A stretch of DNA of 50,483 bases from Actinomycetes bacterium. GTDB lineage: Bacteria > Actinomycetota > Acidimicrobiia > Acidimicrobiales > RAAP-2. How positions within the stretch are numbered: the first letter of the stretch is position 1; the number at the start of each line of letters is the position of its first letter. This document shows positions 33,184 through 35,712 of this stretch, in pieces. Made by a program: the position numbers and the translations under genes. The notes beneath the pieces were generated by a model. The model was not told the DNA's origin and ran no database searches. It was given only the letters and a program-made list of their open reading frames with translations. The stretch lies in assembly GCA_021791635.1 (NCBI GenBank), contig JAJYWF010000006.1, positions 1-50,483 of the forward strand, given 5' to 3'.

Positions 33184-34872
33184 ATGCCCCCCTACGTGAG
33201 CGAGACCTTCACCGCCGAGGAGGCGGCCATCCTGCGCCGCTACGTCACGAACCTCGACCGTCCGGTGTTCGCCCTGGTCAACTTGCCTGAAGTGGTGAAA
33301 GGAGCCCTCTTCGCCCGCTATTCACGCTCATCGAAATCGCTCCGCCGCCTCTTCCTGGACGAGTTCGTCGGGGATCTGGATGTGTCGGGAGACGTGACCG
33401 TGGACGCCACGGTGGGCCTCCACCGGGCCCAGGAGCTCTACCGGCGGGTCTTCCTCGAGTATGGCGATGACTCGGTGGCCCAGCTCGGGGGCGTGCACCT
33501 GGCGTGCGAGCAGTCGTCGAACCTCCTGACCAAGGTGCTCGAGCGCAGCCGGCTGATGTCGTACCTGGAGCAGTCCACCCGCTACATCGGCTACGACAGC
33601 CGCCTGGCGACCGGTCACTACCGCTACTACCGCCCGCCCGAGATCCTCGATTCGTCCCTCGGCGCCCGCTACGTAGGGGACATGGACCGCATGTTCGACA
33701 CCTACGCCGACCTCCTGCCCCGGGTGCAGGCGTGGGTGGCCACCCACCATCCCCGTGACCCTGCCGACTCGGACTTCGTCCACCGCCAGGCGGTGCGGGC
33801 CAAGGCCCTCGACGCCGTGCGCGGCCTCCTCCCGTCAGCGGCGCTGTCCAACGTCGGAGTTTACGGCACTGGACAGTCCTACGAGCTGTTGCTCGTCCAC
33901 ATGCGGACGCACCCTCTCCCCGAGGCCCGCCAGTACGCGGAGCTGATGCTCGAAGAGCTGAGGAAGGTGATCCCGTCGTTCCTCGAGCGGGTCGACCGAC
34001 CGGATCGGGGAGGGGAGTGGTCGACCTACCTGGCGTCGACCCGTGAGGCAATGACCCGCACGACCGCTGATCTATGGCCGGACGCCGCCGGTGGTGCTCT
34101 GCTCCCGTCGGTCTCGAACGAGGTCGAGCCGACAGCGGTGTCGGGGGTGACGCTCTTGGACTTCGACCCCGACGGCGAGGACAAGGTCGTCGCCGCGGCG
34201 TGTTTCCCGTCTACGTCCCTCCCCGAGCCCGAGATCCTCCGCCGGGTCAGAGCCCTGGGCGCCGATGACCGGGTGCAGATCCTCAAGACGTACGTCGGCG
34301 ATCGCCGCAACCGCCGTCACCGACCTGGTCGGGCGTTCGAGCGCACGGGGTACCGCTTCGAGATCGTCTCGGACTACGGGGCGTTCCGTGACCTCCAGCG
34401 TCACCGCATGCTCACCGCCGAGTGGCAGGAGCTGACCACCGGGCTGGGCTGGGAGAGCTCGGAGGTCGTCGAAGAGGCCGGTCTGCTCGGGCCCTACACC
34501 GAGTCACTGGCCCGGTCCAAGGAGCTCCACGCCGCCCTCCTCACGCACTTCCCGGCCCAGGCGGCCTACGCCGTGGCCCTGGCCTTCAGGATCCGCTTCG
34601 TGCTCCAGATGAACGCCCGTGAGGCCATGCACGTCATCGAGCTCCGATCCGGCCCCCAGGGCCATCCGGCCTACCGACGAATTGCCCAGCAGCTTCATCG
34701 GGCCATCGACCAGACAGCGGGTCACCACGCCATCGCCGCGGCGATGGCCTACGTGGACCACCAAGACGTCACGCTCGAGCGGCTGGGCGCCGAGCGCCGG
34801 GCCGAAGCTCGCCGGTCGGTCAGCGGAGCAGGCGGCCAGACGGGAAATCCGCAACTGTCTGACCAGGGATAA
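33184..34872 (+). CDS. double-length ThyX (FAD-dependent thymidylate synthase) homologue
   Basis: A 562-residue protein made of two ThyX-like halves (normal ThyX is about 220-250). In half one, RSRLMSYLEQSTRY (121-134) aligns with the ThyX signature RHRxxSxNxxSxRY: the two Ser and the last Arg-Tyr are kept, but His and Asn are lost. Half two (about 330-540) has RHRMLTAEWQELTTG (406-420), keeping RHR but losing the Ser pair, and keeps the NAR of the nucleotide-binding part at 477-479 (QMNAREAMHVIELR). Neither half alone has the whole canonical active site. It may be a diverged thymidylate synthase with composite sites or a protein with another flavin-linked role. No other thymidylate synthase is in the window. 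Confidence 0.72.
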   Translation: MPPYVSETFTAEEAAILRRYVTNLDRPVFALVNLPEVVKGALFARYSRSSKSLRRLFLDEFVGDLDVSGDVTVDATVGLHRAQELYRRVFLEYGDDSVAQLGGVHLACEQSSNLLTKVLERSRLMSYLEQSTRYIGYDSRLATGHYRYYRPPEILDSSLGARYVGDMDRMFDTYADLLPRVQAWVATHHPRDPADSDFVHRQAVRAKALDAVRGLLPSAALSNVGVYGTGQSYELLLVHMRTHPLPEARQYAELMLEELRKVIPSFLERVDRPDRGGEWSTYLASTREAMTRTTADLWPDAAGGALLPSVSNEVEPTAVSGVTLLDFDPDGEDKVVAAACFPSTSLPEPEILRRVRALGADDRVQILKTYVGDRRNRRHRPGRAFERTGYRFEIVSDYGAFRDLQRHRMLTAEWQELTTGLGWESSEVVEEAGLLGPYTESLARSKELHAALLTHFPAQAAYAVALAFRIRFVLQMNAREAMHVIELRSGPQGHPAYRRIAQQLHRAIDQTAGHHAIAAAMAYVDHQDVTLERLGAERRAEARRSVSGAGGQTGNPQLSDQG

Positions 34873-34908
34873 TTCAAAGTCTTCCTGGTCAACGTGGTAG
34901 CAAGTCCC

Positions 34909-34939
34909 TTGACGGCCGTCCCCATGGTGCGCGTATCGT
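34909..34939 (+). promoter_or_regulatory. sigma-A-like promoter TTGACG-N19-TATCGT upstream of the candidate RNA
   Basis: TTGACG at 34909-34914 and TATCGT at 34934-34939, with a relatively A/T-rich stretch (34870-34882) before it. The 19-base spacing is slightly long. Start of transcription would be near 34946, more than 300 bases before the next gene, so the product would be a separate RNA or a long leader. Confidence 0.4.
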
Positions 34940-34945
34940 ACGGCA

Positions 34946-35140
34946 GTCCCAGTCGCCCCGAGCGGAAGGAGCCGAGCCCCAGGCGCGGCCATGCCGACGG
35001 GGGGGATGCTGTGAGAGGCGGAGGGAGGCCCAGGGGGTCGAGTAGAGAACTTCCCGCCCGTGGGGCAGTCGCCCCACGAGTGGCGAGATGGCCCCAAAGA
35101 CCCCTGGGCCCGGCCGCCTCGACCTCTCGGGCCGTGTCCA
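34946..35140 (+). ncRNA. candidate structured non-coding RNA (extended hairpin, 6S-like layout)
   Basis: This lies in a 393-base region (34873-35265) with no gene I can support. Four stems nest concentrically: CGCGGCC 34984-34990 with GGCCGTG 35130-35136 (one G-U), GAGGCGG 35015-35021 with CCGCCTC 35114-35120, GGCCCAGGGG 35027-35036 with CCCCTGGGCC 35101-35110, and an apical hairpin CGTGGGGC 35059-35066 with GCCCCACG 35071-35078 (loop AGTC). Between the last two is a large, purine-rich open loop. A TTGACG/TATCGT promoter lies just upstream and no open reading frame fits the stems. The layout of a long rod with internal bubbles recalls 6S RNA, but no sequence signature of a known family was recognised. 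GC-rich DNA can give chance stems, so the call is moderate; ends are estimates. Confidence 0.4.
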
Positions 35141-35206
35141 CGACATGACCTGCCCGGCAGCCCGAGCACGACCAGCCCGATAGGCCCAGCACGACCGTGA
35201 CGGTGC

Positions 35207-35234
35207 TTGACCGGCCAGCACCAGCGTCTATGCT
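35207..35234 (+). promoter_or_regulatory. promoter TTGACC-N16-TATGCT of the DUF4193 gene
   Basis: TTGACC at 35207-35212 and TATGCT at 35229-35234, 16 bases apart, is the best sigma-A consensus match in the window. Start near 35241 gives a leader of about 25 bases that includes the strong GGAAGGAAGG ribosome site. Confidence 0.6.
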
Positions 35235-35265
35235 CCCGCGTCACATCACCAGCGGGAAGGAAGGC

Positions 35266-35712
35266 ATGGCAGACGATCTGGACGACGTGGCGGTACCCGA
35301 CGACCTCGACGACGACGCCATCGTCCTCGAGGCGGTCGACGCCGATGAGGACCTCGACGAGGTCATCGAAGTAGACGGCATCGATGACGCCGACGAGGAT
35401 CTCGACCTCGAGGAAGACGGGGACACGGTGCGGCCCGTACCGGCCCGCTCGGACGAGGCCGAGGAGGAAGAGGACGAGGAGGAAGAGGACGAAGACGTCG
35501 AAGCCAGCCTCGACGTGATCCTCAAAGAGCGTCTGGTGGTCGAAGACGAACCCGAAGACGACGAGGTCGTCGACACCGAGGACCGCAGCGAAGGAGTCGA
35601 CCAGGTCCTCCCCAAGCAGCCCGGTGAATTCGTCTGTCGGTCATGCTTCCTGGTGAAGCACCCGAGCCAGCTGGCGGACAAGAAGAGGCTTCTTTGCCGA
35701 GACTGCGTCTGA
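35266..35712 (+). CDS. DUF4193 family protein
   Basis: A 148-residue, very acidic protein (long Asp/Glu runs in residues 1-105) ending in a zinc-ribbon-like module: LPKQPGEFVCRSCFLVKHP, then KKRLLCRDC, i.e. CxxC...CxxC. This C-terminal block matches DUF4193, a small actinobacterial family of unknown function. Most members are about 100 residues; the extra length here is the acidic N-terminus. The ATG at 35266 is chosen for the GGAAGGAAGG site directly before it. The strong promoter suggests high expression. Confidence 0.88.
   Translation: MADDLDDVAVPDDLDDDAIVLEAVDADEDLDEVIEVDGIDDADEDLDLEEDGDTVRPVPARSDEAEEEEDEEEEDEDVEASLDVILKERLVVEDEPEDDEVVDTEDRSEGVDQVLPKQPGEFVCRSCFLVKHPSQLADKKRLLCRDCV

Follow-up and report, generated by a model that had tools for sequence, protein, structure and literature searches.

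The window analysed here, a stretch of 50,483 nucleotides from an Acidimicrobiales genome, carries a candidate structured RNA gene in the gap between a ThyX-like gene and a DUF4193 gene. A structured RNA had been predicted in this gap from the sequence by itself, and covariation together with conservation in relatives bore this out. Relatives of the stretch from about 34945 to 35121 (+ strand) were found in most genomes of the same family, and the core of the stretch (35017-35118) in many Actinomycetota lineages, where members fall into two subtypes, type 1 and type 2, the latter with a GGGGAAG apical loop. The 5′ end of the gene was placed from the promoter, and its 3′ end is uncertain by tens of bases. 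The features of the locus are as follows.

34860-34891, strand unassigned: inverted repeat TGACCAGG-N16-CCTGGTCA overlapping the thyX end, 17 bases before the -35 box of the RNA promoter
34909-34914, + strand: -35 box TTGACG of the RNA promoter (TTGAC within 180 nt upstream in 106 of 126 type-1 loci, against 10 in shuffles)
34934-34939, + strand: -10 box of the RNA promoter, TATCGT (69 of 126 type-1 loci have TTGAC...TAnnnT at promoter spacing)
34945-35121, + strand: structured RNA gene, from DNA conservation, covariation and covariance-model matches
34944-35011, + strand: 5′ domain, a variable hairpin enclosed by CAGTCCCA..CGCCCC and its pairing partner GGGGGGGATGCTG (limited covariation over pairs 7-9/76-78 and 16-19/72-75)
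35017-35021, + strand: 5′ arm of the outer helix, GGCGG, kept in 23-25 of 25 family sequences with hardly any variation
35027-35039, + strand: 5′ arm of the core helix, GGCCCAGGGGGTC (both-side changes in 12 of 13 pairs, 59 sequences)
35040-35049, + strand: 5′ strand of the internal loop, G-AGTAGAGAA (AGTAGAnAA invariant; invariant columns in alignments A2 and A3)
35050-35090, + strand: inner hairpin P3, variable in length and apical loop (C-G closing pair invariant, both-side changes in 3 of 5 pairs)
35091-35098, + strand: 3′ strand of the internal loop, GCCCCAAA (GnnCCAAm; invariant columns in A2 and A3)
35099-35110, + strand: 3′ arm of the core helix, GACCCCTGGGCC (both-side changes in 12 of 13 pairs, 59 sequences)
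35114-35118, + strand: 3′ arm of the outer helix, CCGCC, from the RNAalifold comparative structure
35207-35234, + strand: separate promoter of the DUF4193 gene, TTGACC-N16-TATGCT (conserved GTCTATGCTCC in relatives)
35266-35712, + strand: DUF4193 gene (PF13834, E 4.9e-8), the conserved downstream neighbour outside the RNA

A DNA search with 34880-35250 as query recovered the gap from most genomes of the family, with a core up to 93% identical, and most of these alignments ran on into the start of the DUF4193 gene. The alignment of relatives ran from TTGAC-N17-19-TAnnnT through CAGTCCCA..CGCCCC, a variable hairpin, GGGGGGGATGCTGTGAGAGGCGG, the arm GGCCCnGGGGnTC and GAGTAGAGAAC to a further variable hairpin, GATGGnGCCAAAGA, the arm CCCCnGGGCC and CCGCC. 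Common to all members were a helix of about 13 bp, a near-invariant internal loop (AGUAGAnAAC / GnnCCAAmG) and a variable inner hairpin, and the core measured 76-110 nt in many of them. The 5′ domain occurred in Acidimicrobiia-type members and was missing from the short members of Frankia and Streptosporangium. Loci of other Acidimicrobiia (L065, L070, L071 and L075, 1500-1700, and similar ones) had an inner hairpin with a second conserved internal loop (GSRATAACCC...GGGCCAAACAG) and a 5′ domain with a conserved GGTCGTGG...GGGGGC hairpin.

Compensatory changes, which the original prediction had expected in relatives, were present: RNAalifold on 25 family sequences returned 33 pairs, 14 of them with compensatory changes. 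In alignment A2 (48 sequences of the class) 90.9% of the cells were paired and 142 double-change cells stood against 53 ± 7.5 in shuffles, a count reached in 0 of 500; all covariation measures beat 500 of 500 shuffles as well as all slid structures. Alignment A3 (59 sequences from several classes) had 88% of cells paired and 233 double-change cells against 76 ± 10 in shuffles, and slid structures were 33-53% paired, a slide by a single base already reducing pairing to about half; in A3 one measure out of five, which counts the pairs showing at least one double change, was not above the shuffles (128/500). The loop positions AGUAGA-AAC and GG--CCAA-G were invariant in 59 of 59 A3 sequences, an invariance that is somewhat inflated because most of these sequences were chosen by a pattern containing the loop letters; the covariation of the helices is unaffected by this recruitment. 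The alignment of the L288 family, whose rows were picked by DNA similarity, kept AGUAGACAACGG, and CCGAAG replaced CCAAAG.

Four base-paired segments, identified here by matching length, had been proposed to nest in a single rod. The complementary segments GGCGG/CCGCC (35017-35021 / 35114-35118; GAGGCGG/CCGCCTC in this genome), the 10-bp GGCCCAGGGG/CCCCTGGGCC (35027-35036 / 35101-35110) and the apical 8-bp CGTGGGGC/GCCCCACG were confirmed, all nested and on the + strand. The outermost segment of such a rod was not supported: the comparative structure places 34944-35011 in a domain of its own (CCC...CCCC / GGGGGGG), and conservation ceases after CCGCC. Compared with shuffled sequence, folding of 34946-35140 taken alone gave a weak signal in this GC-rich DNA (z = -1.57, 14 of 200 shuffles as good), while the signal over 35013-35140 was clear (z = -3.16, 0 of 200). 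The weak score over the longer interval speaks for inverted repeats that arose by chance in GC-rich DNA, or for conserved protein-coding sequence, but the probability of either is negligible: chance repeats are ruled out by the covariation and by the 0 of 200 control genomes with a match, and a coding sequence by the interrupted frames of the relatives compared, whose lengths are not multiples of three and which share no conserved reading frame. A possible start-codon-stop mini frame (GGGGGGG-ATG-CTG-TGA, 34999-35014) was seen in the window; its middle codon varies among CTG, CCG, CGG, TTG and AGG, its stop is TAA in L017, and it is lost in other relatives, so that it may be structural only.

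Of 296 genomes in the class, 58 had a match to covariance model R2, almost always a single copy, while model R3 matched 75 of 346 genomes in the phylum Actinomycetota and none of the 200 genomes of a Pseudomonadota control; Infernal E-values are rough here (short calibration), and the counts are those of genomes that the models reach, many Actinomycetota genomes being missed. The copy number was usually one or two per genome. A DNA pattern scan named as hosts Acidimicrobiales MAGs, Streptosporangium, Planobispora, Frankia, Parafrankia and Candidatus Solincola (class Geothermincolia), besides others. The flanking helix accompanied 113 of the 119 pattern matches although the pattern did not include it, and among the matches listed outside Actinomycetota three of four were without it. 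In 2.9 million viral contigs the pattern had no match, and a phage or mobile origin was rejected on this result. Within the family of L288, which comprises large-genome actinomycetes, DNA matches were obtained in 100 of 121 genomes and 17 of 17 genera, mostly at 76-95% identity; most covered the RNA itself, a rod of about 100 nt with 89% mean column identity. The ppm1/rbpA neighbours make Streptomycetaceae the probable identity of this family; the ppm1 gene of S. coelicolor is SCO1423 (PMC5882110). Membership in a phylum-wide family is a result beyond what the original prediction could see. In genome G934 (contig 1, 1238711-1239033) matches recurred at a spacing of 105 bases, three in all and two of these partial, an arrangement that suggests tandem repetition of the RNA or of its 3′ part.

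The neighbours were thyX or an amidohydrolase gene, DUF4193, lnt, a ppm1-like gene or rbpA, and polA, 4HBT or ABC genes. DUF4193 followed on the same strand in 97 of 119 type-1 loci and in 0 of 42 type-2 loci. Type 2 adjoined polA (identified by eye from the protein sequence), a 4HBT thioesterase gene, pdtaR or ABC-transporter genes; the next gene was convergent at 8 of the 9 loci inspected, and type-2 loci mostly had no same-strand downstream gene to control. Both subtypes occurred together in several genomes (e.g., G494 and G384). Among the weak model matches, L290, L292, L293, L299, L300 and L311 lay just upstream of lnt (LNT_N, PF20154), with DUF4193 in between in two, and L288 and L289 preceded a gene for a ppm1-like glycosyltransferase; rbpA was close to L289.

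The predicted promoter TTGACG-N19-TATCGT (34909-34939) is present and was conserved in nearly all close relatives. Sigma-A-type promoters preceded the 69 type-1 cores listed above against 0.5 (maximum 2) in shuffles, and 15 of 49 type-2 cores against 0.1 (maximum 1), at tight, lineage-specific distances from the core. A T-tract followed the helix in 36 of 176 cores, compared with 7 in a control stretch, and strong hairpins stood after the core at five of nine weak-match loci tested (z -3.1 to -5.4), a sixth having z -2.1. The DUF4193 gene likewise has the promoter of its own that had been predicted, and the TATGCT box is conserved in relatives; GTCTATGCTCC lies between the RNA and DUF4193 in 27 of 97 loci. 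GGAAY-N17-19-GTT was found in the same interval, also in 27 of 97 loci, against 0.9 (maximum 4) in shuffles. We take this motif to be the consensus of sigma-R/ECF-type promoters, and it hints that DUF4193 could belong to a thiol/oxidative stress regulon; its carriers include L113, L119, L120, L296 and L292. The conserved RNA promoter and the separate DUF4193 promoter support a separate transcript of roughly 180-200 nt, close to the 190-200 bases proposed originally, which would be made independently of the gene behind it.

A cis-acting, riboswitch-like leader of the DUF4193 and lnt genes would explain why type 1 so often sits upstream of DUF4193 on the same strand, or upstream of lnt; the invariant loop also resembles an aptamer core, and in some members the helix is followed by a T-tract. 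A leader, however, lies in the 5′ UTR of the gene that it controls, and here DUF4193 promoters are found downstream of the RNA, the hairpins at several loci are predicted to end the transcript, and type-2 members share the loop and have a convergent gene opposite them. The second promoter before DUF4193 and the orphan type-2 copies make a leader role quite improbable in our view, and the RNA is therefore better described as a stand-alone RNA, even if some read-through from its promoter into DUF4193 is possible at type-1 loci.

Comparison with Rfam 15 (4227 families), which the original prediction had named as a check, gave no match over the gathering cut-off in the window, in 20 diverse loci or in 15 more loci, apart from a tRNA elsewhere in one of these 15, and permissive scans yielded chance-level matches only. 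The bacterial small SRP RNA (RF00169) is, like the new RNA, a hairpin of about 100 nt with a conserved internal loop, but the loop sequences differ, and its model never matched at the RNA locus; SRP RNA lay at other loci in 19 of 20 genomes, among them G000 (on contig 18), which rules out this identity. The 6S model (RF00013) had no match at this locus, and Rfam 6S was not found in 19 of 20 genomes tested, whereas the model matched in 6 of 14 control genomes. Genome G380 carries a canonical 6S RNA (contig 50, 31886-32073, L304; 67.9 bits, over the cut-off) and the new RNA at another locus. Elsewhere in actinobacteria, 6S RNA is reported to go unrecognised. G380 belongs to family f84, as do Candidatus Solincola-type sequences (Geothermincolia).

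The 6S-like identity suggested originally was not supported, because G380 carries both RNAs and the loop is conserved in sequence; a canonical 6S RNA is ruled out by its absence from 19 of the 20 genomes and by its presence beside the new RNA in G380. The new RNA shares with 6S RNA the stand-alone rod, the internal bubble, a sigma-A-type promoter of its own and one or two copies per genome. Yet a 6S RNA has about 180 nt and a large central bubble. Its primary sequence is not conserved (PMC11077062), while here the loop is near-invariant across classes and the core has half that length, shrinking to about 76-100 nt in several lineages. A polymerase-binding RNA of 6S or Ms1 type that Rfam fails to recognise, its rod and bubble mimicking an open promoter, would account for the shared traits and for the general lack of Rfam 6S in these genomes, and it draws some support from rbpA, encoding the polymerase-binding protein RbpA, close by in one lineage and from scr0792, a polymerase-binding RNA of about 85 nt in S. 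coelicolor (PMC11077062). Against it stand the coexistence and the loop already mentioned, the short core, and the neighbourhood of Ms1. Ms1 is also an actinobacterial, stand-alone, structured RNA, but it has about 300 nt and a conserved neighbourhood of HAD hydrolase and oxidoreductase (PMC9130861) in place of DUF4193/lnt or polA/thioesterase; by neighbourhood, identity with Ms1 is rejected. scr0792, a short actinobacterial RNA as well, is set apart by its locus (SCO0791-SCO0792, not among the neighbourhoods found here). Taken together, we consider a polymerase-binding RNA of this kind rather unlikely.

A base-pairing regulatory sRNA, in which the rod would serve as scaffold and terminator and AGUAGA, CCAAAG or the type-2 GGGGAAG would pair with mRNAs or rRNA, is a minority possibility that we rate a little higher. 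It agrees with the RNA's own promoter, the 3′-end terminator and the conserved single-stranded loop sequences, but invariance of both internal-loop strands across classes is more readily explained by a motif that is folded or bound than by a seed, and the apical loop differs between the subtypes. The mostly single copy, the very strong sequence conservation and the broad distribution could instead point to a housekeeping RNP component or a small-molecule-dependent RNA (e.g., of the ribosome, of secretion or of an RNA-processing machine) that is not a regulator. We hold this to be about as improbable as polymerase binding, since 19 of 20 genomes have their SRP RNA elsewhere, the difference in apical loop between the two subtypes hints at regulation, and the models do not find the RNA in every genome.

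That the family is a real stand-alone RNA is almost certain from the comparative evidence, namely covarying helices, a promoter of its own and the lack of a conserved reading frame. We lean, by somewhat better than even chances, towards the view that Actinomycetota have a new family of structured non-coding RNAs, each standing alone behind its own promoter, that the RNA in the window represents this family in Acidimicrobiales, and that these RNAs would act in trans through a protein-binding internal loop. In this mechanism, transcription would start near 34945 from the sigma-A-type promoter, and the RNA would fold into the 5′ domain and the rod and end after the rod. The internal loop (AGUAGAnAAC / GnnCCAAmG) is predicted to be a specific protein-binding site, and within an RNA-protein complex the RNA might regulate or service a protein shared across the phylum. 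The loop is best read as a binding site, most likely of a protein that the phylum has in common, because it is invariant while the helices and the apical loop vary. That it works by binding a protein is a tentative proposal; binding of a small molecule, folding of the loop on itself or pairing with a target would explain its invariant nucleotides equally well. Put most broadly, there is not quite an even chance that this is an undescribed RNA class, widespread in Actinomycetota, which split into two subtypes by duplication and forms an RNA-protein complex via the invariant loop for a core regulatory or housekeeping task, with a reach like that of 6S or SRP RNA.

The family is uncatalogued until now, judged against Rfam 15 and the open-access literature, whereas its general kind, the stand-alone structured bacterial RNA, is already known. 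In the text of open-access papers nothing was found on the loop letters in a relevant context, on a DUF4193-linked RNA, on a polA-linked Streptomyces sRNA or on an sRNA linked to SCO1423/1424. Earlier RNA-seq tables, e.g., those of PMC3765725, may already include a Streptomyces member without the family having been recognised. If the RNA is deeply conserved in Acidimicrobiia, Geothermincolia, Frankia, Streptosporangium and probably Streptomyces, it would be among the most widespread unexplained RNAs of its phylum, and it seems to be a widespread regulatory or housekeeping RNA overlooked so far. Actinomycetota is the phylum that makes most antibiotics. The RNA bears on the question of which structured regulatory RNAs actinobacteria use, because recognised 6S RNA is mostly missing there. 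With invariant loop nucleotides and genes short enough to clone, its partner and function can be tested directly in ordinary laboratory actinomycetes.

On the upstream side of the locus, the inverted repeat at 34860-34891 persists throughout the class, several relatives showing compensating changes, and the pattern TGAMC...GGTCA occurred in 32 of 175 upstream regions against about 1 in shuffles. The repeat might be an operator or the thyX terminator. The ThyX-like gene (33184-34872), the usual left neighbour of the RNA in Acidimicrobiia, encodes a protein of 562 aa with two Thy1 stretches that scores below the thyX equivalog cut-off, possibly a fused or duplicated ThyX relative that might be non-catalytic.
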